Below are positions 40,222 through 59,982 of a DNA stretch of 64,000 nt, in pieces. This stretch comes from Polaromonas sp. CG_9.7 (GTDB taxonomy: Bacteria; Pseudomonadota; Gammaproteobacteria; Burkholderiales; Burkholderiaceae_C). Position 1 is the first letter of the stretch; every line of letters starts with the position of its first letter. Location of the stretch: the NCBI RefSeq assembly GCF_015752205.1, contig NZ_JADOVG010000012.1, forward strand, positions 1 to 64,000, read 5' to 3'. The position numbers and the translations under genes were made by a program. The notes below the pieces were generated by a model. That model saw only the letters and a list, made by a program, of their open reading frames with translations. It was not told the origin of the DNA and ran no database searches.

Positions 40222-41883
40222 TCAGTCGTTGGCGTAGATGTCGACGTCCTTGGTTTCCTTCACGAACAGCGTGCCTATGACAAACGTCATGCCGGCAATG
40301 ATGATCGGATACCACAGCCCGTTGTACATGTTGCCTGTCTGCGCCACGATCGCAAAGGCGGTGGTGGGCAGCAGGCCGCCAAACCAGCCATTGCCGATAT
40401 GGTAGGGCAGGCTCATGGACGTGTAGCGGATACGTGTCGGAAAGAGTTCCACCAGCATCGCGGCAATCGGGCCATACACCATGGTCACCAGAAGCACCAG
40501 ATAGAACAGGATCAGGGTGACCATGAACTTGTCCACTTTGGCCGGGTCGGCCTTGGAGGGATAACCGGCGGTCTTCAACGCGTCGGCCACGGATTTTTTG
40601 AACTCAGCGTCCTTCTTCCTGGCTTCGTCGGCCGGCAGGCCCTTGGCGGTGTAGCTGGAAATCTCGGTCGTGCCGATCTTGATGGTGGCCGGCGTGCCGG
40701 CCTTGCCTGGCGCATTTTCATAGCTGACCGAAGCGCCGGCCAGCACCTGTTTGGCAATGTCGCAGGAACTGGTGAACTTGACGGTGCCGGTCGGGTTGAA
40801 CTGGAACGAGCATTCCGAAGGGTCGGCGGTCACCACCACCTGGTTAGCGGCCTGTGCGGCGGCCAGGTCGGGGTTGGCAGCCTTGGTCAGCGCGGTGAAC
40901 ACCGGGAAATAGGTCAACGCCGCCAGCAGGCAGCCTGCCATGATGATCGGCTTGCGGCCGATCTTGTCCGACAGCATGCCGAAGACCACGAAGAATGGCG
41001 TGCCCAGAATCAGCGAGTAAGCCACCAGGATATTGGCCGTCGGGCCGTCCACCTTCAGCGCCTGCGTCAGGAAGAACAAGGCATAGAACTGGCCCGAGTA
41101 CCAGACCACGGCCTGGCCGGCGGTCAGGCCGACCAGCGCCAGAATCACGATTTTCAGATTTTTCCACTGGCCAAAGGACTCGGACAGCGGCGCCTTGGAG
41201 GTCTTTCCCTCGGCCTTCATTTTCTGGAATGCAGGCGACTCGTTCATCGACAGGCGGATGTACACCGACACGGCCAGCAGCAGGATGGAAACGAGAAACG
41301 GAATGCGCCAGCCCCAGTCGGCAAAAGCGGCCTCGCCAATGGCGGTTCGCACGCCCAGGATGACCATCAGGCTCAGGAACAGGCCCATGGTCGCCGTGGT
41401 CTGGATCCAGGATGTGTAGGCGCCGCGCTTGTGCTGGGGCGCGTGCTCGGCCACATACACCGCCGCACCGCCATACTCGCCGCCCAGCGCCAGGCCTTGC
41501 AGCATGCGCAGGGCAATCAGGATGATCGGCGCAGCAACCCCGATCGACGCATAGTTGGGCAGCAAGCCGACGATAAAGGTGGACAGCCCCATGATGACGA
41601 TGGTGACCAAAAACGTGTACTTGCGGCCGATCATGTCGCCCAGGCGGCCAAACAGCAGCGCGCCGAAAGGCCGGACGATGAAACCGGCGGCAAACGCCAG
41701 CAGCGCAAAAATGAAGGCCGAACCGGAGTCCAGTCCGCTGAAGAATTGCCGGGCGATGATGGCCGCCAGCGAGCCATACAGATAAAAATCGTACCACTCG
41801 AAAACCGTGCCCAGCGAAGACGCGAAGATCACGCGCCGTTGCTCGGATGACATCGGTCTGTTGTCGATTGCACGTGTCGCCAT
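40222..41883 (-). CDS. MHS-family MFS transporter with a large periplasmic loop (paralogue 1)
   Basis: Twelve-helix major facilitator of 553 residues, of the metabolite:H+ symporter (ProP/ShiA-like) type. It has GTVFEWYDFYLYG near the N-terminus, GRLGDMIGRKYTF between helices 2 and 3, and GLALGGEYGGAAVYVAEHAP. About 115 residues (near 334-451) are inserted between helices 9 and 10, on the periplasmic side. They include CSFQFNPTGTVKFTSSC, whose two cysteines could form a disulfide. Start is the ATG at 41883 after GGGAGAC. A paralogue with the same loop lies at 51-53 kb. Substrate unknown, probably a carboxylate. Confidence 0.9.
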   Translation of the reverse strand: MATRAIDNRPMSSEQRRVIFASSLGTVFEWYDFYLYGSLAAIIARQFFSGLDSGSAFIFALLAFAAGFIVRPFGALLFGRLGDMIGRKYTFLVTIVIMGLSTFIVGLLPNYASIGVAAPIILIALRMLQGLALGGEYGGAAVYVAEHAPQHKRGAYTSWIQTTATMGLFLSLMVILGVRTAIGEAAFADWGWRIPFLVSILLLAVSVYIRLSMNESPAFQKMKAEGKTSKAPLSESFGQWKNLKIVILALVGLTAGQAVVWYSGQFYALFFLTQALKVDGPTANILVAYSLILGTPFFVVFGMLSDKIGRKPIIMAGCLLAALTYFPVFTALTKAANPDLAAAQAANQVVVTADPSECSFQFNPTGTVKFTSSCDIAKQVLAGASVSYENAPGKAGTPATIKIGTTEISSYTAKGLPADEARKKDAEFKKSVADALKTAGYPSKADPAKVDKFMVTLILFYLVLLVTMVYGPIAAMLVELFPTRIRYTSMSLPYHIGNGWFGGLLPTTAFAIVAQTGNMYNGLWYPIIIAGMTFVIGTLFVKETKDVDIYAND

Positions 41884-42053
41884 TGTTTTGTCTCCCACTG
41901 ATAAATACCTCTGGAATAGAAGCTGCCAGTAGTATTTTTGAAACACCTGTCAGCAATCTGACTTGAAAATAACAAAACCTTACATAAAACTTTCACGAAA
42001 CTGACAAATAAATGCTAACCCTTATGACATTTTTCAGCATGTGAAGAACCTAC

Positions 42054-48449: not shown

Positions 48450-48504
48450 CAGCGCCTCCTTGCCGCGACAACCGGGTTGATGCCGCTCAGCTCTTGGTGC
48501 TGGG

Positions 48505-48657
48505 CTAGGCAATGCTGGCATGGGCATGCTTGAGCGTGACTTCGGAAAGATCACGCCTGACCAGAATGCGCCAGGCCCGGCGCAGCCAGAAAAACCCCAT
48601 CGGGAACAGCGCCAGGAAAAGAATCCACGTCAAGGCCACGCTGAAATTAAAAACCAT
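48505..48657 (-). CDS. Tiny membrane protein (50 aa) at the head of the signalling operon
   Basis: Protein of 50 residues with one membrane helix (FSVALTWILFLALFPMGFFWL) followed by a basic stretch (RRAWRILVRRD). The ATG at 48657 has AGGGAG upstream. It lies after a terminator, so it probably opens the operon that runs through the kinase, receiver and exonuclease fusion. Small conserved helices of this kind often stabilise symporter-like partners. Confidence 0.75.
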   Translation of the reverse strand: MVFNFSVALTWILFLALFPMGFFWLRRAWRILVRRDLSEVTLKHAHASIA

Positions 48658-48711
48658 GCAGCACTCCCTGAAACCGGCGCGGCACCCTGCAGCACGACGT
48701 CGATTGAATTG

Positions 48712-48746
48712 AAAAAAAGGCCCTGCCAGTGCCAGTGGCAGGGCCT
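48712..48746 (-). terminator. Intrinsic terminator after the decayed symporter gene
   Basis: On the minus strand AGGCCCTGCCA and TGGCAGGGCCT form a perfect 11-bp stem around seven bases, followed by T7. It separates the symporter remnant from the signalling operon. Confidence 0.92.
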
Positions 48747-48790
48747 CCATTGTCACGCCCTACCCGCCTGAACGGGCAAAGGGATTTGCA

Positions 48791-50006
48791 TCAAATCATG
48801 GCGTACCAGACTCGATGGCTGCCCGTGACCAGTTTGGAGCCGCGCGGAACAGGCACGGCTTCAACCATCGCCTGGATATGCGCTGGCGGTTCTCTGGTGA
48901 ATTTTCCAACCAGGAAAACCATCCCGAAATTCACCATGGCGCCGACCGCACCGAAGGCTTCCGGCCTGATGCCGAATAAGCTGCTTGCGCCGCCGATCAT
49001 CGGATGGAACCCGGTTCCGTTGATGAAGAAAGTACCTTGTGCGCCACCAGATAGAACAACGTGACGAACAAGCCCGACAGCATGACGGCAATGGCGCCTT
49101 GCTTGTTCATCTTCTTGCTGAAGATACCCATCATGAGGATCAGCAAGCCCGCAGCCGTTGACAGTGCTGCGGCCAGGCCACCCGCTGCCACCAGCGCGAT
49201 CACCCAGTTGGGCAGCAACGCAATTTCAGGATTGGCCAACACAATGATGTCGGGGTTGACCGTCAATTCGTTGCCTTTCCAGCCGGCTGCTTCTGCCTGG
49301 CCCGTGGCAACTTCGTTTTTGCTGGTGTCGTTGTAGTACTGGATGCAGCCGTCGCCGTTTTTGTCTTCAAACTTGAGCAACCCGGTTTTTTTCCAGCGCT
49401 TCATCCAGTCGGGGCGGTCCCCGTTCAGGATGCTGGATTGAGGGGCATACAGGTCTTTGCCGGTTGCCACGGCAGTGTTCACCGTCGCAGGCAGGTTCGG
49501 TTTGGCCATGGCCGCTACGGCGGGTGCCGTGGTGTAGAGGATGGCGATGAAAACCAGTGCCCAGCCCGCAGAACTGCCGGCATCCTTGACCGACGTAACG
49601 GTGAAGAATCTCATAATGACGTGCGGCAAGCCAGCGGTCCCGATCATCAGCGACAGCGTGTACATGAACATGAACATGAACATGTTCAGCGTGCTGCCGG
49701 CTGTGGTGATGGTGGTGTATTGGCTAAAGCCCAAATCGGTGACGACCAGGTCCAGCTTGGCCTGTAGCGACATGTCGGTGCCGGAAAAACCACGACCCAA
49801 GCCCAGATGTGGAATCGCGTTGCCCGTCAGCTGCAGCGAGATAAAGACCGCTGGCACGGTGTAGGCAATGATCAGCACGAAGTACCGGGCCAACTGGGTG
49901 TGGGTGATGCCTTTCATGCCGCCGAACACGGCGAACAAAAAACAATTCTTATACCTACGTAGATGCCCACCTCGTTGCTCGTGTCCAGGAGGCGGGAGAA
50001 CGCCTA
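48791..50006 (-). pseudogene. Decayed sodium/solute symporter (ActP-like, VC_2705 type)
   Basis: Remnant of a sodium:solute symporter. Frame 1 (48997-49938) gives membrane helices such as GGMKGITHTQLARYFVLIIA and TAGLPHVIMRFFTV, plus the extra loop typical of this subfamily. Near 49028 one base is missing, so the tail (PMIGGASSLFGIRPEAFGAVG) continues in another frame to 48791. Near 49934 a T-run is one base short, and the next upstream piece (SNEVGIYVGIRIVF) is again shifted. Homology stops near 50006 at a TAG. About 200 N-terminal residues and the usual DUF4212 partner gene are missing. Confidence 0.85.
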
Positions 50007-50055
50007 AACTCTCTCTACTTTAATCTTTGATACATGAGGCAAAGGAGACCCTGCC

Positions 50056-50328
50056 GTGACCGATCTTGTACTTTCGCAACTGACCGACCCGTTTCGCATC
50101 GGTCTGATCATCGCCCTTGTGGTCACGATGATCAGAACCTCCGCTGTGACCGGGCGCGCCCTGCCTTTAGCCCTGGGGGTGGTTTTCGTGGCCGTGATCC
50201 TGCCCAGCACCATGCCAGGCGGCGCTGCAATCCTCAGCGATGCCATTCTTGCAGGGCTGATCTCGAACCTGATCATATTGGGACTGGCCCTTCCCATTGC
50301 GGCGCTGGTCGCACGACTGCGCCGCTGA
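50056..50328 (+). CDS. Small hydrophobic protein (90 aa)
   Basis: Probably three membrane helices (IGLIIALVVTMI, LPLALGVVFVAVILP, LISNLIILGLALPIAALV). It starts at a GTG with AAGGAG about ten bases upstream. No family is recognised. It lies in the junction between the truncated symporter and a transposase relic, on the opposite strand to all neighbours, and probably arrived with the accessory segment. Confidence 0.6.
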   Translation: MTDLVLSQLTDPFRIGLIIALVVTMIRTSAVTGRALPLALGVVFVAVILPSTMPGGAAILSDAILAGLISNLIILGLALPIAALVARLRR

Positions 50329-50344
50329 CCTCCTCTGTTTGATC

Positions 50345-51069
50345 CCAGATCAAAGGCACCCATCGTGCGTGCGTGGAGGTGGTTGGTTGGCATGATGCGC
50401 AGCCATGGGTGTAACCGTCGGCAAGCCTGGCCAGACACAAAGGGCGATAAGGCTTTGGTGTCCAACAGTGGCGCATATCGTTATTGCGCCCGAAGCGTGC
50501 CGCTTCTGGAAACATCAGCCGGACAGGTTCGCCTCGCGATTCTTTGTAAAGGCCGTGGTGCGTGCCAAGACGCTTCCCCTCACTCTTCCTGGGCCAAAGT
50601 ATCAGTTTGTGGATGGCACTTGTCCGGGGCCAACTTCCGCCAATCAAGGCGCTGCAGCAGCGTGTAAACAGGCGAGCGTCACAGCGCATCATCAAGGCGA
50701 TGCTTGATTTGGCCAACCACAATGGCGCCTTCCTCGCGGACTTGCGCCAGAAACGGATTGAGTGCAGCAGCCTCTTTTTTCCGCGTGAAGTTTTGTCTGC
50801 GCCGCCCCCACGCGCTGGAATGGGGCTGCCGCGCACGGCCTTTCCGTGAAGGAATTGGTGCGCTGCTTACTTGCCCAACCGTTGAACAGTCCGATTGCTT
50901 TAGCTGTCTGCTCCAAGCTCAATGCAAATCGCAATGAAAATATCTCCGCCTGCACGTAGCGCAACGGTTCGGCAGTTACAGCATTGGAGATGGCTTGTAT
51001 CGAAATATGAACAACATCTTCCATCGTGCAATTCTGGCCATGACGAAAGCCGAAATTGATACGTTTCAA
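50345..51069 (-). pseudogene. Degenerate IS630-type transposase
   Basis: No complete frame, but three pieces in order on the minus strand match IS630/Tc1-type transposases. The N-terminal helix-turn-helix SLEQTAKAIGLFNGWASKQR is near 50850-50930. Next comes NPFLAQVREEGAIVVGQIKHRL followed by stops near 50650-50770. Last is GEPVRLMFPEAARFGRNNDM with RHCWTPKPYRPLC, near 50400-50530. In the last piece the catalytic aspartate of the usual QDEARFG is replaced (PEAARFG). Frameshifts and at least two stops make it inactive. No terminal repeats were identified with confidence. Confidence 0.75.
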
Positions 51070-51122
51070 TGAAGTGGATCTGTTGAGTTGCGGACGCGGG
51101 CATCTCGCTTGCCCTTTCCTGC

Positions 51123-51166
51123 TTCCTGCAAATCGGGCGCAGCATGCTGCGCCCGATTTGCAGGAA
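51123..51166. repeat. Perfect 44-bp palindrome
   Basis: Bases 51123-51144 are the exact reverse complement of 51145-51166, without a central loop. The arm is TTCCTGCAAATCGGGCGCAG plus CA. It lies between the transposase relic and the end of the second MHS transporter. No T-run flanks it, so it is not a classical terminator. The rest of 51070-51255 holds nothing else recognisable. Confidence 0.9.
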
Positions 51167-51255
51167 ACAGACCAGCCTGGCCCCTTGGGGGCTGATGGCC
51201 GTATCGCAAAGAAGGCCGGGCCAGGGACCCGAAGGCCCCGGTCCGGCAGTTGGAT

Positions 51256-53058
51256 TTACTTACCGCTGTCGCCGGCGAAGATATCCTTCTTGTGGGTGCC
51301 ACCCGGCACGAACAGCGTGCCGATCACCACCGTCATGACCGCAATCACGATCGCGTACCACAAGCCCGAGTAGATGTTGCCGGTCTGGGCAGAGATCGCA
51401 AAAGCGGTCGCTGGCATCAGTCCGCCAAACCAGCCATTACCGATGTGATACGGCAACGACAGGCCGGAGTAACGGATGCGGGTCGGGAACATTTCGACCA
51501 ACATCGCCGCAATCGGGCCGTAGACCATCGTTACCAGCAGGACCAGGTAGGTCAAGATAAGAATGATCGTCAACTTCTGTGCCGTGAAAATGTCGACAAA
51601 ATTCTGCGCCTTGGCGATGGTCGTGTTGTCGGCTGGCACCAGCGGGTAACCCGCCTTCTTCAGCGCGGCGTTCAGACTGCCGTCAAAGGTTGTCTTCGCC
51701 TTTTTCAGATCGTCGCCGGTCAGTTTGCCTGCGTCATAGGACTGGATCTCCGTTTCCCCAACCTTCACCATGGCCAAGGTGCCCGATGCGGCCCCTTCAA
51801 TGGTTTCGTAATTGACCGAAGTCCGCGCGAGCTGTGCCTTGGCGATGTCGCAAGACGATGTGAACTTCACCGTTCCGGTCGGGTTGAACTGGAACGAGCA
51901 GTCTTCTGCCGCTACCTTTACCGATACCGGGGTCTGGTGTGCGGCATAGATGGCTGGATTGGCCGTCTTGGTCAAAAAGCCGAACACCGGCAGGAAGGTG
52001 GCGGCGGCCAGCAGGCAGCCCGCCAGGATGATCGGCTTACGGCCGATACGGTCAGACAACGATCCAAAGAACAGGAAGCCCCCGGTACCCAGGATCAGCG
52101 ACCAGGCCACCATGACGTTGGCGGTGAAGCTGTCGATCTTGATCACGTTTTGCATGAAAAACAACGCGTAGAACTGACCGGTGTACCAGACCACGGCCTG
52201 ACCGGCGACCAGGCCAAACAAAGCGATGACCGCAATCTTGCCATTTTTCCAGTTGCCGAACGCTTCACTTAACGGTGCTTTGGAGGTGCGACCCTCTTCC
52301 TTCATCTTCTTGAAGGCGGGGCTCTCATTCATCTGCAGGCGGATATAGAGCGAGACCATCAGCAGGAAGATCGAGCCGATGAAGGGGACACGCCAACCCC
52401 AGGCGTTGAACGCCTTGACCATGGTCGGTGCGCCGTCGGCCATCAATACCGCGACGCCGTCTTTCATCAGAGGTACATCGGGGTAGTTGCCGTTGACGTA
52501 GCCTTGCACCGACAGAATCACGACCAGCGACAGCAGCAGGCCCAACGTTGCCGTGGTCTGAATGAAGGCCGTGAAGTAGCCGCGCTGGTTGGCCGGCGCG
52601 TGTTCGGCCACATAGATGGCTGCGCCACCGTACTCGCCGCCCAGGGCCAGACCTTGCGCCATCCGCAAGACGATCAGGATGATGGGCGCGGCCGTGCCGA
52701 TGCTTTCGTAGTTTGGCAGCACGCCGACCAGGAAGGTCGATACGCCCATGATGACGATGGTCATCAGGAAGGTGTATTTACGGCCGATCATGTCGCCCAG
52801 CATCCCGAATACCAGCGCGCCGAACGGGCGCACGATGAAGCCTGCAGCAAAGGCAAGCAGCGCAAACACGTTGCGTGTATTTTCGGGGAAAGCTGTGAAA
52901 AACTGCGCTCCGATGATCGCTGCCAGTGCACCGTAAAGGTAGAAGTCGTACCACTCGAAAATAGTACCCGCCGAAGAGGCCATGATGACCTTCTTCTCTT
53001 CGCGGGTCATTGGACGGGATCGCTCCCGCACATTCGTCACCGTGTCAGCTATCGCCAT
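51256..53058 (-). CDS. MHS-family MFS transporter with a large periplasmic loop (paralogue 2)
   Basis: Transporter of 600 residues, clearly homologous over its length to the one at 40-42 kb. It shares GTIFEWYDFYLYGALAAI, GMLGDMIGRKYTF, GLALGGEYGGAAIYVAEHAP and the loop motif CSFQFNPTGTVKFTSSC. The periplasmic loop between helices 9 and 10 (about 366-489) is again over 110 residues. A second insertion between helices 5 and 6 (QGYVNGNYPDVPLMKDG) is absent from paralogue 1. The ATG at 53058 is preferred because GGAG lies six bases upstream; an ATG four codons earlier is possible. Substrate unknown. Confidence 0.9.
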   Translation of the reverse strand: MAIADTVTNVRERSRPMTREEKKVIMASSAGTIFEWYDFYLYGALAAIIGAQFFTAFPENTRNVFALLAFAAGFIVRPFGALVFGMLGDMIGRKYTFLMTIVIMGVSTFLVGVLPNYESIGTAAPIILIVLRMAQGLALGGEYGGAAIYVAEHAPANQRGYFTAFIQTTATLGLLLSLVVILSVQGYVNGNYPDVPLMKDGVAVLMADGAPTMVKAFNAWGWRVPFIGSIFLLMVSLYIRLQMNESPAFKKMKEEGRTSKAPLSEAFGNWKNGKIAVIALFGLVAGQAVVWYTGQFYALFFMQNVIKIDSFTANVMVAWSLILGTGGFLFFGSLSDRIGRKPIILAGCLLAAATFLPVFGFLTKTANPAIYAAHQTPVSVKVAAEDCSFQFNPTGTVKFTSSCDIAKAQLARTSVNYETIEGAASGTLAMVKVGETEIQSYDAGKLTGDDLKKAKTTFDGSLNAALKKAGYPLVPADNTTIAKAQNFVDIFTAQKLTIILILTYLVLLVTMVYGPIAAMLVEMFPTRIRYSGLSLPYHIGNGWFGGLMPATAFAISAQTGNIYSGLWYAIVIAVMTVVIGTLFVPGGTHKKDIFAGDSGK

Positions 53059-53481
53059 TTTTTGCTCCATGTGTGTCCGGCAATTTGGCCGGACGGTTAT
53101 TTTCAGAAGTTAGCCTCTGGATCGCTTCGCTCGCTACGGGCGCAGGGCCCGGAGGCGATGTGATGTCACAGGCTTCCCACTACTTGCTGCTCTGCCCTTT
53201 TCTGCCCAAACCCGAACATCGACTGCCCTGGATGCCAGCCAGTCGATCCAGTGCAACACACACTATTTATTGTTGCTTTTTGCTCTGCTGGCGCGACTGT
53301 GTAGGAGGTTTCTTACGCCAAAATTGCAGACTTGGAGCCATCACGTCAATAGCAGGGTAAGCCCCTAATAAATAACGGACTGTCCGAGGCGAAGTTTTCA
53401 AAAGTGACGCATTTGACCGGGAAATGCCTGTACGGAAATGGGCTGGCAAGGCTGGGTGTTGCGGCAACATCCGGCCAAATT
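53059..53481. other. Spacer without recognised gene
   Basis: About 420 bp between the kinase gene and the MHS transporter. Short frames here show no coding character. It probably holds the transporter promoter; no clear -35/-10 pair or repeat was recognised. Confidence 0.55.
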
Positions 53482-54915
53482 TCACACTCGCGCCATACCT
53501 TCGCGCCGTTCGGGCACCCGGATCACCGTCACCGAACAATGCGCCTCGGCCACCACCTGCGTCGAAATAGATCCCAGGTAGCGGCGCGCCGTCGAATGGC
53601 CGCCCGCGCCCAGCAGGATATGGCTGACGTGGTTCGCCGTGGCATAGTCAATGATCACCGGCCCCGGATCAGGCCCCGCCAGCACGGCAAAGGTCAACCG
53701 GTCCTCCGGCAGATCAATCCCTGCGGCCCAGGCCCTCAGCGCCACAAGCCGCACCACATGCAGGTTATTGCCCGCCTCGTCCGTGGCCTGATCTATGCCG
53801 ATACGGGCGGTCTTCAGGACGTTGACACAAGCAATCCGTGCATCCGGCTGGGTCAACAGCATGCGCTGGACCGAGTCGCGAAGGATTTCAGCCAGCCGCT
53901 CGCCCTCGGGGGAAAAATCCACCGCCACGCAAATGATCGGCACCGAAGCGAGATGAAGCGCCACTGAAACTGGCGTCGTGAACCGCTGTATCTTGCGCAT
54001 CACGCGCCAGCGGTGGAAAACAGTCAGCCGGCTGTCTGGTAGGGTCTTCATCCCCCGTGGTGTCAGCTTGACCTGCAGCGGATACGCCAGATCGAACGCC
54101 ATCTGCGCGGCTGTTTGGTAACGGTGCATCGGGTCCACCTCCAACGCGCGCAGGATGATCTCCTGCAGCCACTCTGGAACCTCGGGTCGCAGGGCACGCG
54201 GCGGCACCGGGTCGCGCCACAGGCGTTTGCGCACCCCTTTCAACTTTTCAGGCATGCCGAATGGCAACTTTCCAGTGGCCAGCTCATAGACCATCGCGCC
54301 CAGAGCAAATAAATCCGACCTAAGGTCATCACGGCAACGCAGATACTGCTCGGGCGCGATGTAAGGGAAGGTTCCCATCGGGATGGAAAATTCCTCAGCC
54401 AGGAGGTCCGGCAATTGATCATGGCGACTGAGGCCAAAGTCAATCAGCACCGTTTCACCGCCCGACGCCTGAGAAACCGGTCGTTGCATTAAATTTTCTG
54501 GTTTCAGGTCCAGATGGATCACATGCTGGCGGTGCAGTTCGGCCACTGCCTGCACCATTTGAGCAGCAATTTCCATCACGTCAGACAGCGGCAGGGGCGC
54601 ATGCTTGAACACGCCAAGCAACGACCCCCCTTCGATCTTTTCGGCCACGATATAAGGCATCGCCGAAAAATCGCCCACGCCCACCACCCGGGGCACATGG
54701 GGCCCGGACAGACGCGGCATGATCATCTGCTCCACCTCGAAGCCCACGATGGCGGGGCCGTCATAGCCGTCCATGATGATCGGGACCTTCATCACCATGG
54801 AGGTGGGATGGTCGGGGTGCGTCACCTCCCAGATCGTGGCGAAGGCGCCTTGATGCAGTTTTTCGCCCAGGCGAAAACCATCGATCGCCATTCCAGGATG
54901 CGGCAGTACCGGCAT
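53482..54915 (-). CDS. Serine/threonine protein kinase fused to a universal stress protein domain
   Basis: Cytosolic protein of 477 residues. The N-terminal eukaryotic-like kinase has a glycine loop (GEKLHQGAFATIWEV), K43, catalytic loop HLDLKPEN (134-141, with L in place of the usual R), DFG at 159-161 and the APE motif (IAPEQ). After a basic linker, residues from about 328 form a UspA domain (VPIICVAVDFSPEGE, then HILLGAGGHSTARRYLGSIS and VTVIRVP), whose G-x-x-G-x-x-x-R-x-x-x-G-S pattern suggests ATP binding. One base separates it from the upstream phosphoesterase gene, so a kinase/phosphatase pair is likely. Confidence 0.93.
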   Translation of the reverse strand: MPVLPHPGMAIDGFRLGEKLHQGAFATIWEVTHPDHPTSMVMKVPIIMDGYDGPAIVGFEVEQMIMPRLSGPHVPRVVGVGDFSAMPYIVAEKIEGGSLLGVFKHAPLPLSDVMEIAAQMVQAVAELHRQHVIHLDLKPENLMQRPVSQASGGETVLIDFGLSRHDQLPDLLAEEFSIPMGTFPYIAPEQYLRCRDDLRSDLFALGAMVYELATGKLPFGMPEKLKGVRKRLWRDPVPPRALRPEVPEWLQEIILRALEVDPMHRYQTAAQMAFDLAYPLQVKLTPRGMKTLPDSRLTVFHRWRVMRKIQRFTTPVSVALHLASVPIICVAVDFSPEGERLAEILRDSVQRMLLTQPDARIACVNVLKTARIGIDQATDEAGNNLHVVRLVALRAWAAGIDLPEDRLTFAVLAGPDPGPVIIDYATANHVSHILLGAGGHSTARRYLGSISTQVVAEAHCSVTVIRVPERREGMARV

Positions 54916-54916
54916 C

Positions 54917-55657
54917 TCATTTACCTTTCATCAAGCGACGCGCCAGTTCTTCGGGCAGTCCGGCCACCCGCATTTTCTGAACCGTTTTCGCCGTGTCATA
55001 CGGCGTTCGGCGAAAGGTCAGCTCATTGGTTCCAGTGTCCAGCAGCGCATAACCTGCCTGCGCCGTCCCGTCGCGCGGCTGGCCCACCGCACCCACCACC
55101 GCCAGCCAGCGGCGCGAGCGAACCAGAGGAATCGGCGTGGCCATGCGGAACGAATGCACCCGCACCACGCCGCCCACGTTGCTACTGGCCAGCAGGGGCA
55201 CATGCACATGCCCGCACAGGATGATTCGCGCTTCGCAAGACCGGAACGATCCCCGGGCCATGCTGGCCGATGTCACATAGATCCACGCCCCCGGATCATT
55301 GGCCGAGGCGTGAACAAAAAGCACATCCCCTGTCGTTGCCATCAAGGGCAAGCCTGCCAGAAACGTCCGGTGCGCGTCGGTCAGCTGGGCCTTGGTCCAG
55401 ACCATCGCCCGTCTGGCATTGGCGCTCAACGATTCGACCCCACCTGCGGCCGCGCTGTCATGGTTGCCCCGGATGCAGACGGCCCCTGCCGCCACCAGAC
55501 CGGCGGTCTTGTCAACGCACCATTCGGGGTCAGGGCCGTAACCCACCACATCGCCCAGAAGCACGATCCGGTCCACCCCGCGCGCGGCTGCATCGGCCAG
55601 AACAGCCTCAAACGCCTCCCGGTTGGCGTGGATATCGGTCAGAACGGCAAACCTCAT
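54917..55657 (-). CDS. Calcineurin-like metallophosphoesterase
   Basis: Protein of 246 residues with the dinuclear metal motifs in order: DIHAN (D8, H10), GDVVGYG, GNHD, and GHVHVP. This is the YfcE/PrpE-like type, which includes protein serine/threonine phosphatases. The ATG at 55657 has GGGAGGAG upstream; the longer frame is rejected. It is the first gene of a two-gene operon with the kinase-UspA fusion, so it could reverse the kinase's action. Substrate not shown. Confidence 0.9.
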   Translation of the reverse strand: MRFAVLTDIHANREAFEAVLADAAARGVDRIVLLGDVVGYGPDPEWCVDKTAGLVAAGAVCIRGNHDSAAAGGVESLSANARRAMVWTKAQLTDAHRTFLAGLPLMATTGDVLFVHASANDPGAWIYVTSASMARGSFRSCEARIILCGHVHVPLLASSNVGGVVRVHSFRMATPIPLVRSRRWLAVVGAVGQPRDGTAQAGYALLDTGTNELTFRRTPYDTAKTVQKMRVAGLPEELARRLMKGK

Positions 55658-56267
55658 CGGAACTCCTCCCAAGACGCAGCGCGGATCTTCCTGCAAACGC
55701 CCCAACCCTGCCATGTGGCGGATCAAGCTGGCACATAGTCAAAAATATCTCAACAATCATCACAACACCACGCCCTTTTAACGCCTTAATTCCGCTGGGG
55801 AGTGGCGCCTGCAGGAGTCAAAATCGGTGCTGACTGACGTGGTCTCGGTGCTCCACCGTGAGCACTCAGCGTCAGGTATGGAGTATGCAGCGTGTCCATG
55901 GGGAATTCCAAAATGGGGTCGCCCTCAAACGTGTCCAGGCCCAAGGACACCACCAGCGCCGGCAGCCCAAAGTCGGCCACACCCTGCAAGGCGGCGTGCC
56001 AGACTTTAAAACCCGTACTGCGCAGCAAGATGACGGATGACGGCCAGACCGATTCCCTGCACGCTGGCCATGAGCTGCTACGCCGACCTGGAGGTGTTGA
56101 CCATCGACGAGTATGGGGGTTAGCGATGGGACCTCAAGGGAAAACACCCAGACACACTTCTCACAGCAAAAAGCGCTTTGCCTGTGTGTCCCTGGCCCAT
56201 CAACAGCGCGTGCCGCCCCCCATGGCCACCCTGTCAAAGGCCGGCCATGGGAAGGGGGGCGGCGACA
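55658..56267. other. Gene-poor spacer containing a deacetylase relic
   Basis: 610 bp. The left part is the likely promoter region of the phosphoesterase-kinase operon. The middle carries a short remnant of a deacetylase gene. On the plus strand near 56056-56121 a frame ends CTLAMSCYADLEVLTIDEYG, which may be another gene tail but is not recognised. Confidence 0.55.
55855..56028 (-). pseudogene. Fragment of a histone-deacetylase-family gene (acetylpolyamine amidohydrolase type)
   Basis: On the minus strand WHAALQGVADFGLPALVVSLGLDTFEGDPI(L)EF is preserved. The ALVVSLGxDTFxxDPI segment is a hallmark of the HDAC/AphA superfamily and includes a zinc-ligand aspartate. Only about 35 residues of a roughly 340-residue family are left, with no start and no C-terminus, so it is a relic. 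Both flanks are unrelated. Confidence 0.65.
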
Positions 56268-57017
56268 TCAAGCCTGCAAGGCCTGCATGCGCTGCGCAAT
56301 GAGGCGCCAAGCGGCGCGCTTGCCGTCGTCATTGGCGCTGCTCCAGCCGGCGATTTCGTTGCGCGTGCGAAAGCAGCCTTCACACAGGTCCGTCCGGGCG
56401 TTCATGCGGCAAATTGAAATGCAGGGCGAGGGGATATCGGCAGCCGTGTCCACGGTACGCAAGCGCAAGGTGACCAGGGAGATGGCGCGCGCCAGCGCCT
56501 GTTGCTGCTCGTCGGTGTCCACCGCCAGATCCACCACGGGCGCATCGGTCAAGCGCTGAAGCGCCTGCGGCGAGAGCCTGAACACCGCATGCGGATGGCC
56601 AGCCGCCGCCCAGAGTTCGTCAAAACGGAACAACGACTGGTCGATCAGCACCAGCACCGGTGTGGCGTGAGCCAGCGGTGCCACGCCGCCAATCGAAAAG
56701 CCGGTACTTGCCTTCACAAATGCCGCATCGGCCCGGCCCAGCCGCTTGCCATCGCAGACCAGGGCTTCGACTTTTTTCTCGTCCACACGCTGGTCGCCGG
56801 AGGTCACCACCAGCACGGCGGCATCGTCCTGCTTGCGGCGAAACACAATGCTTTTGGCAATCTGGCCAACCGACACACCCAGCGCATCGGCCGCCTGTTG
56901 CGCGGTTCGGGCAGCGTCGTTCAGCATGACAGGGGCGTGCGCATGTCCGCTGGCCAGAAGCACTGCAGCCACGCGTTGAACGCCTTCGGGCAAGGTCAGG
57001 ATTTCGGCGCCGCACAT
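56268..57017 (-). CDS. YbaK/EbsC-type editing domain fused to a DUF1289 cysteine motif
   Basis: Protein of 249 residues. Residues 1-165 form a YbaK/ProX-like domain (IAKSIVFRRKQDDAAVLVVTSGDQRVD, then TGFSIGGVAPLAH), which deacylates mischarged tRNAs. Residues about 195-245 carry the DUF1289 pattern C-x3-C-R-M-N-x5-C-x-G-C-x-R-T-x-x-E-I-x-x-W, a likely metal site found mostly in separate small proteins. The start (MCGAEIL) overlaps the HMG-CoA lyase stop by one base. A longer frame read through the lyase gene is rejected. Confidence 0.88.
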   Translation of the reverse strand: MCGAEILTLPEGVQRVAAVLLASGHAHAPVMLNDAARTAQQAADALGVSVGQIAKSIVFRRKQDDAAVLVVTSGDQRVDEKKVEALVCDGKRLGRADAAFVKASTGFSIGGVAPLAHATPVLVLIDQSLFRFDELWAAAGHPHAVFRLSPQALQRLTDAPVVDLAVDTDEQQQALARAISLVTLRLRTVDTAADIPSPCISICRMNARTDLCEGCFRTRNEIAGWSSANDDGKRAAWRLIAQRMQALQA

Positions 57018-58047: not shown

Positions 58048-59880
58048 TCAGCCAGGAAGCTGGTAGCGCAATTGCAGGTGTTGCCTGAAGCGCTTGATGA
58101 TGATTAACGAGTCTTTCAGCAAGTCACGGTCCAGCGTGCCAAGGCTGGAAAAATGCGACAGGTTGTCAAGCGGTTGCTCCAGCTGTTTTTGCCGAAGATT
58201 GCTTTTAAGCTTCATGCTCATCAGGAAATGCAGTGCGTCAATCAGGTCGCGGGCCAGATCGGACGGAATATGCTTTCGGCTCACCAGCACCTGCAGCCGG
58301 GCCGTCGTGCCCACCTCGTCAAGCCGATGCTCCAGCGCCAGGGAACGTACGCCATGCACGATGGGAAACGTGCCAAGCTTCTTGAGATCGAACACCTGCT
58401 CTTCCCGCCCGCGCAGCGTGGCAAGGCGCACCCACCAACCGGGAGGTTCGCTGAACTGGTCAATAGCAGCTGCAAAACGGGCAAAAAATGCATCGCTGCC
58501 TGCCATGATGCGATGCGCGTAATCCCGGGCCTGCCGGAGCAGCGACGCGTCACCAGCAACGGCCCGGGCATCCATGAAGATCGCCAGATTCATCGGCCCG
58601 TCCGCATCGGTGCCATAAAGCCATTCCAAAAGACTGTTTTGAAAACCGGCCAGCGGCTGGCACCACAGCGGATTGGTCACCATGATGTTGCCCGGACACA
58701 GCGGGTAGCCAAACTCCGTCAACGCCTGGTTGAAACGCTGCACGCTCTGCTGAAGTTCGGCGCACACAAAGCCGTCGCGCAGCAGCAGGGCATTGTCCTG
58801 GTCTGTCTTGAGGATCTGCTCGCCACGCCCTTCGCTGCCCATCACGATCAGGCAGCTGTTGGCGACCAGCTCGGCCGGTGCGACAAACGACCACAGGCGG
58901 GCAAAAATCTGCTGATTTAGCTCGCTCACCAGGCTGGAAATCAATTCAACCCGGGCACCTCCGCTGTGAAGCAACGCAATCAGGCCATCCATTTGCAAGG
59001 CTGCCGTGCGGAGTTCCGAACTACAAGCGGCCTGCTCCACCTGCAGTGCAATCAGGTGTGAATGGTTGGATACAAAGCTCATCAGGTCAAGCTGGCTCAA
59101 CACGCCCAAAATAGCATCGCCTTCGCGCACCAGCACGCGATGCACACGGTGACGAATCATCGCCAGCAGCGCTTCCGACAGCTCGGCGCCGGCCTGAACC
59201 GAGACCAGCGAGAACTGCGTGACCTCGCGAACCGCCAGTTCATGCGGCCGCACGGGCCGAAGCAAGGCATCGCGCAAATCGGTGGTGGTGAACATGCCGA
59301 TGCGCTCCACGCCGTCCTGCGTGTCACGCACCAGCGCATTGCCCAGCCCCTGCGCCGACAGCAGGCGGCAGACCGACACCAAATCGAGGGCGCCATCGAC
59401 AAAAAATGGCTTGCGGATGTAGGCATCGCGCACACGCACCATCATGAGTGACAGCAATTCACGGCTATTTCGATTTTCTGATGCAGCCGAAAGCCGCTTC
59501 GACAGGTCGGCAAACACCAGCGCGCTGAACAGCGCGTTGCCTGAAATCAGCGCACGCGCCGTGGCACCGGGCAGTTGCCAGGCCTGCACGTCGTCCAGCG
59601 CCTGCAGCACGCCGCTGGCGCGGCCAGCCATCACCGCGCGAAAGGCAAAAAAATCAGGTGGCGTGTAGACCGCGACGACCTCTCCCGCTTCCATCTGCTG
59701 CACATGGCCCTTGAACAGCACGTACACATGGGCCGGTTCCATGTCAGGGGTCAAAATCACCGTATCTTTCGCAAAAGACACCCGGCGCAAGCTTCCCCGC
59801 ACCAGCGCCTGCTGCTCCGGGTTCAGGCAGTCAAAAGGCGGCGCATCAAAAGAAAAGGGGTCTGAAAAATGATCCGGCAC
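58048..59880 (-). CDS. cNMP-binding/CBS/DUF294 nucleotidyltransferase-like signalling protein
   Basis: Cytosolic protein of about 610 residues. An N-terminal cyclic-nucleotide-binding-like barrel (about 20-125) is followed by a CBS pair (about 150-275; VRDAYIRKPFFV and VREVTQFSLVSV). A DUF294 nucleotidyltransferase domain comes next, with the GlnD-like motif MGSEGRGEQILKTDQDNALL, and then a DUF294 C-terminal domain. The start is probably the GTG at 59880. Such proteins are known as neighbours of acetate permeases and DnaQ-type exonucleases. It lies downstream of actP behind a terminator, so it is at least partly separate. Confidence 0.88.
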   Translation of the reverse strand: MPDHFSDPFSFDAPPFDCLNPEQQALVRGSLRRVSFAKDTVILTPDMEPAHVYVLFKGHVQQMEAGEVVAVYTPPDFFAFRAVMAGRASGVLQALDDVQAWQLPGATARALISGNALFSALVFADLSKRLSAASENRNSRELLSLMMVRVRDAYIRKPFFVDGALDLVSVCRLLSAQGLGNALVRDTQDGVERIGMFTTTDLRDALLRPVRPHELAVREVTQFSLVSVQAGAELSEALLAMIRHRVHRVLVREGDAILGVLSQLDLMSFVSNHSHLIALQVEQAACSSELRTAALQMDGLIALLHSGGARVELISSLVSELNQQIFARLWSFVAPAELVANSCLIVMGSEGRGEQILKTDQDNALLLRDGFVCAELQQSVQRFNQALTEFGYPLCPGNIMVTNPLWCQPLAGFQNSLLEWLYGTDADGPMNLAIFMDARAVAGDASLLRQARDYAHRIMAGSDAFFARFAAAIDQFSEPPGWWVRLATLRGREEQVFDLKKLGTFPIVHGVRSLALEHRLDEVGTTARLQVLVSRKHIPSDLARDLIDALHFLMSMKLKSNLRQKQLEQPLDNLSHFSSLGTLDRDLLKDSLIIIKRFRQHLQLRYQLPG

Positions 59881-59894
59881 GGCGGGTTTCCCAT

Positions 59895-59930
59895 GAAAAA
59901 AGGACTGCAGGCAATGTTCCTGCAGTCCTT
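59895..59930 (-). terminator. Intrinsic terminator after actP
   Basis: On the minus strand AAGGACTGCAGG and CCTGCAGTCCTT pair around seven bases, followed by T6. It lies about 50 bases past the actP stop and overlaps the leader of the DUF294 gene. Confidence 0.9.
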
Positions 59931-59982
59931 CCAGATTATGGCAAGGTGGACCGAACGGCCCGCCTTGGTCAGGCAAACAACA

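Follow-up and report, generated by a model that had tools for sequence, protein, structure and literature searches.

What does a protein kinase fused to a universal stress protein (USP) domain do when its gene begins one base after that of a phosphoesterase? The question is raised by two genes in a stretch of 64,000 nucleotides from Polaromonas sp. CG_9.7 (contig NZ_JADOVG010000012.1), referred to here as the window. Where a bacterial Hanks kinase has a dedicated partner, this is usually a PP2C enzyme, and a different type of partner is encoded here. The answer reached is that the pair would form a self-contained, soluble reversible-phosphorylation switch with a nucleotide gate in the USP domain, a reading to which slightly better than even confidence is given.

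Both genes lie on the minus strand. The metallophosphoesterase (MPE) gene (54917..55657, 246 aa) is the first of the pair, with its ATG at 55657 and its stop ending at 54917, and the single base 54916 separates it from the ATG of the kinase-USP fusion gene (53482..54915, stop included, 477 aa). This arrangement had been described in a sequence-only reading as a Ser/Thr kinase fused to UspA, one base from a phosphoesterase gene; the coordinates proved exact, and Pfam confirmed the domains, with a protein kinase domain at residues 15-268 of the fusion (54112..54873, minus strand; PF00069, E 3.3e-28), a USP domain at residues 328-466 (53518..53934, minus strand; PF00582, E 1.6e-14) and, in the MPE, PF12850 (E 7.9e-16) and PF00149 (E 2.4e-14), each match exceeding its cut-off. 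Structure modelling of the fusion gave a mean pLDDT of 88.5 and a pTM of 0.88. With a 19-residue window, the hydropathy of the MPE peaks at 1.37 and a membrane span is not evident; the fusion has one stretch reaching 2.02, from residue 316, which is modelled as a short helix together with the first strand of the USP domain.

The kinase domain carries Lys43, Glu60/62, Asp136, Asn141 and Asp159-Phe-Gly, and thereby the catalytic Lys, the HxD Asp and the DFG Asp of Hanks-type kinases. Its best PDB match is PknB, by profile as well as by model, with a Z of 28.6 for the overall fold. Across 113 kinase copies, Lys43, Glu60, Glu62, Asp136, Asp159 and Gly161 are invariant, the first Gly of the glycine loop is replaced by a nearly invariant His, and position 141 is occupied by Asn in 103, Ser in 8 and Gln in 2. 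The catalytic loop, H134-L135-D136 (54508..54516, minus strand), lacks the HRD arginine of the RD subclass, and position 135 is Leu in 104 copies, His in 9 and Arg in none. As a control, 19 other kinases fetched alongside the fusions were looked at, and HRD was present in 12 of the 13 with a readable motif. The HLD triplet singled out by the sequence-only reading is therefore real, but it is no oddity of the window copy, since HRD is absent from all 113; HLD or HHD is a mark of the whole fusion family, and local mutation or damage is ruled out by these counts. In lineage f66 the loop reads HHD and the metal-binding Asn141 is Ser in 7/7 copies (L121, L122, L123, L125-L128). By analogy with what is established for other non-RD kinases, the kinase activity predicted here is probably not gated by phosphorylation of the enzyme's own activation loop.

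The C-terminal domain of the fusion scores 55.1 bits against a Usp cut-off of 24. It has a G-2x-G-8x-G-S motif of the ATP-binding type, reading G436-AG-G439-8x-G448-S449, together with D333 in strand 1, and the ATP-binding-like motif noticed earlier is thus indeed present in the window. According to PMC3673472, the 8-residue spacing is typical of NE1028, a USP that has been observed in complex with AMP. In the model, the loop of residues 439-447 has a pLDDT below 50. A relaxed form of the motif was found in 85/96 copies outside two lineages and is absent from those two, which keep the pair all the same (0/13 and 0/4). On its residues, ATP sensing by the window copy is plausible, while the motif is gone in all 17 copies of these two lineages.

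Turning to the MPE, the metal-site residues D8, H10, D36, N65, H66, H116, H150 and H152 are invariant over the 46 rows of the alignment, and the DxH, GD, GNHD, H and GHxH motifs of calcineurin-like enzymes are all found. Protein phosphatases of the PPP type bear the signatures GDxVDRG and GNHE; the window protein reads GDVVGYG and GNHD instead. Its closest solved relative is 3rqz, an uncharacterised structural-genomics entry titled as an MPE of Sphaerobacter thermophilus, matched over the whole length (E 6e-42, residues 1-245), followed by SapH (Spr1479; 3qfm), whose title gives an asymmetric Ap4A hydrolase and phosphodiesterase and which is matched by the single sequence only at residues 2-51 (E 3e-7). 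With a profile of the 46 MPEs the order is 3rqz, two Pyrococcus entries and SapH (E 7.5e-14, residues 2-158). SapH is the nearest characterised relative, sharing with 3rqz and the window protein the MPE fold and metal motifs, and a model of relatives in which the MPE is fused to another domain gave a Z of 26 with SapH vs 16-17 with protein phosphatases. The likeness to an Ap4A hydrolase is one of sequence and predicted fold.

A search for the two genes across genomes, which the sequence-only reading had set as a check and whose failure would have refuted it, found them together nearly everywhere, so that the pair passed strongly. Of 90 full-length fusions (80 retained out of 163 relatives from a scan of genome contigs, plus ten from 60 genomes related to the host's), 87 have the MPE gene immediately upstream in the same orientation; in the other three the kinase match begins 31 (L019), 4 (L069) and 257 nt (L109) from a contig end. 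The MPE is incomplete in five of the 87, four of them at contig ends and the fifth (L085) at a run of N, an assembly gap which rules this locus out as a pair without a whole MPE. The two genes are at most 20 nt apart in 82/87, a figure that carries some start-codon uncertainty, because the starts of homologs were picked for their closeness to the query. An evenly drawn sample of 398 Pseudomonadota genomes contained a fusion at E<=1e-40 in 23, the window's own included; the fusions score 3.3e-90 or better and other kinases, from the host's relatives, 1.9e-33 or worse. The MPE adjoins the fusion in 21 of the 22 sample genomes other than the window's. At the exception (L131), the first MPE residues run into the kinase without a start and an integrase-core ORF lies downstream, which looks like the decay of a pair. 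On plasmids the two genes adjoin in 4/4 cases, one pair spanning the start of its record, and the divergence of the kinase is correlated with that of the MPE (r 0.91 over 3741 pairs, shared ancestry included). Chance adjacency is ruled out by these pairing counts: the MPE and the kinase-USP fusion are a conserved two-gene module, and the pairing looks obligate.

Relatives of the MPE occupy 61 places in 60 of the 398 genomes: 23 are close (the window's, 21 in pairs, and G258, the one genome where an MPE occurs without the fusion), 31 lie at E 2.4e-37 to 2.2e-24, and 7 are weaker. The 54 matches at E<=1e-20 thus comprise 22 in a pair, one orphan and a second group of 31. Of this second group 24 were read; the open frames of the remaining seven are at least 521 aa long. 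In 22 of the 24, the MPE stands at the end of a longer protein; in G267 the same N-terminal domain is split between two open stretches, and in G387 there is none. The N-terminal domain of these 23 shows a Lys, a Glu, Asp-4x-Asn and DDD in the order of a kinase, with Lys54 invariant, Glu78 nearly so, Asp147 followed five residues on by Asn152, and Asp165-167. The model (pLDDT 89.7, pTM 0.84) places strands and helices around those residues in what we read as kinase order. An hhalign comparison with the Hanks kinase aligned the same residues at E 0.44, which is not significant; Pfam and PDB sequence searches with the domain returned chance-like matches and no Pfam match common to the members, and fold searches were filled by the MPE domain. 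The order of residues and the predicted secondary structure are suggestive of a kinase-like domain, and with it of a second tie between MPE and kinase; the domain carries no USP match. Proteins of this build, MPE plus an N-terminal kinase-like domain that fits none of the Pfam models, stand at L164 (652-2226) and 22 further loci (L165-L185, L207) and are frequent in family f57.

The window copy of the pair is horizontally acquired. In the kinase tree, it groups with a copy from a contig labelled as a Polaromonas MAG (L039) inside a Rhodobacterales clade (support 99 for the clade of 11 rows, 100 for that of 38), while the kinases from the host's own genus, with 41-44% identity, fall in a separate, distant clade; the MPE tree gives the same result at the level of the 38 rows. 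The trees hold 87 (kinase) and 84 (MPE) rows, with 19 and 22 loci left out as near-duplicates or as cut at contig ends, and are drawn without 7 of the 22 phylum-sample copies. In addition, the segment is missing from two close relatives of the host: one (G019) lacks 50004..56113, with about 830 bases in place and the part up to 50004 present, and the other (G036) lacks 48462-56286, with about 210 bases in place and collinearity on both sides. A truncated SSF transporter relic (48997..49938, minus strand; Pfam SSF, 141 residues, profile 133-255 of 406) lies beside the segment, and given the nested absences it is probable that two steps were needed to bring in the relic and the block. The sequence-only reading had proposed that the pair may be acquired, on the ground of a segment with IS and gene relics; the acquisition stands, through the trees and the two relatives, and so does the SSF relic, whereas no IS was found, as Pfam gave no transposase family at E<=0.01 for nine further proteins, including four ORFs that lie between 50007 and 51069, and the plasmid collection contained no DNA match to 50000-51260. 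Identity to L039 is 93% over 50800-56028 and 83-85% in the flanks, with finer bins at 72 to 98%; the inner block is closer to L039 than the flanks are, as if recently exchanged. With dN/dS values of 0.20 for the kinase and 0.29 for the MPE against L039, the pair is kept under purifying selection. A near-perfect, loopless palindrome of 52 bases, single-copy in the genome, was noted at 51119-51170, just past the MFS gene described below.

From the observed anatomy, conservation, near-obligate pairing and transfer, we infer the activities, the gating and the target as follows. The MPE would be made first and the kinase right after, with translational coupling probable from the spacing. A soluble kinase of the PknB type, complete in its catalytic residues and with a non-RD loop, would be gated by its C-terminal USP domain, whose adenine-nucleotide-binding motif is kept in the window's branch. 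The MPE would then remove the phosphate added by the kinase, either from the fusion itself or from a shared target. In the window genome, this pair came in from Rhodobacterales together with an MFS transporter. Several findings count against such a switch: the MPE is nearest to 3rqz and then SapH, away from the PPP protein phosphatases; the USP motif is lost in 17/17 copies of the two pair-keeping lineages; HHD and Asn141 to Ser coincide in 7/7 f66 copies; and an MPE occurs without a kinase in G258 and, in the second group, without a kinase-like domain in G387.

That the MPE would reverse the mark of the kinase, as the sequence-only reading has it, is a proposal: among characterised proteins, the one closest to it in sequence is an Ap4A hydrolase. 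The MPE might instead be a nucleotide hydrolase that destroys an adenine-nucleotide signal, Ap4A or similar, read by the USP domain, so that a nucleotide-gated kinase would carry its own signal breaker. The SapH matches and fold scores point this way, as do a USP motif like the one that accompanies bound AMP in NE1028 (PMC3673472) and the acetyl-CoA synthetase (acs) and adenylate kinase genes that adjoin the pair in four Rhodobacterales loci. However, in the 17 copies that have lost the USP motif the MPE is still paired with the kinase, and relatives of the MPE are joined to a kinase-like domain without a USP match; this reading is regarded as rather unlikely, if by no means negligible. A broader idea, and a more speculative one, is that signal reading, signal destruction (the operon partner hydrolysing the adenine-nucleotide alarmone read by the USP domain) and protein phosphorylation are joined in one transferable module, of which the kinase-like-MPE fusions would be a second, independent build; it is considered unlikely. 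A pseudokinase or scaffold in place of an active kinase, with the MPE alone acting, would fit the non-RD loop, the His in the glycine loop and the change of Asn141 in 10/113 copies, yet it is very improbable in view of the invariance of Lys43, Glu60, Asp136 and Asp159 and of a fold as in PknB.

The neighbourhood has also been weighed as a guide to function. The acquired segment contains an MFS gene of the metabolite/H+ symporter type (51256..53070, minus strand), which a minority of other genomes also have next to the pair; its best relatives found are those of L039 (97%) and of a Rhodobacter plasmid, where it also stands beside the pair (76%). The pair could accordingly be imagined as specifically controlling how short-chain acids are taken up and activated, through the adjoining transporter and acetyl-CoA synthetase. 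The window and 7/80 named loci of several lineages have a member of one MFS subfamily beside the pair, and MFS, adenylate kinase and acs genes stand on the strand opposite to the pair in L059, L068, L071 and the Rhodobacter plasmid. On the other hand, the subfamily recurs in just one of 24 further pair regions (L188-L190, L209-L229), namely L217, about 6-7 kb away, with a 29% match in L221; co-presence of pair and transporter in genomes (19/23 vs 42/375) does not show up inside families f1, f56 or f66; and the other recurrent neighbours in the named loci are housekeeping families (QueC, DsbA, family 5 solute-binding protein, acyl-CoA ligases) that vary by lineage. Such a regulator is held to be quite improbable, and the MFS or acetate genes are unsupported as a general partner beyond some lineages. 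A role in defence is not supported: PADLOC matched the kinase to models of kinases (PD-T4-6, mad6 and others) and gave nothing for the MPE, and no defence gene was seen among the neighbours examined. Three further features of these surroundings were recorded. On the Rhodobacter plasmid (L208, 999-8458), the MFS - adenylate kinase - acs genes are divergent from the pair, with a polysaccharide gene and a nos cluster downstream. A second MFS gene of the same subfamily is found in the window at 40222-41946, at a place where relatives carry it too, and about 2.4 kb upstream of the pair (58048-59976) a DUF294 nucleotidyltransferase with cNMP-binding and CBS domains lies by an SSF symporter.

Part of this was already known. 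PknB has a PP2C phosphatase partner gene, and the window pair resembles it in joining a Hanks kinase to an adjoining gene of the phosphatase type; it differs in that the partner is a calcineurin-like MPE (PF12850/PF00149) and not a PP2C, in having a USP domain in place of transmembrane and PASTA parts, and in its non-RD loop. Kinases (STYKs) with a USPA domain were called 'stress-responsive protein kinases' in 2005 (PMC1262709); the three proteins given there are kinase-USP fusions as here and possible orthologues of the window fusion, and, unlike for the pair described here, the main text of that article does not contain 'phosphoesterase' and gives neither a partner gene nor transfer. Plants likewise have proteins that combine USP and kinase domains (PMC3673472; PMC1262709), which are likened here by description only. 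RefSeq names the same two proteins, adjoining on named plasmids, as 'bifunctional serine/threonine-protein kinase/universal stress protein' and 'metallophosphoesterase family protein', annotation names that do not state the pairing as a system. Publication of the fusion itself dates back to 2005; text searches of open papers gave none on its partnership with the MPE.

These results describe a large family of soluble, non-RD kinases of Proteobacteria that is almost always coupled to a calcineurin-like phosphoesterase and a USP domain. The biochemical role of the USP domain is an old question. The strict pairing offers a direct handle, as either part can be used to assay the other.
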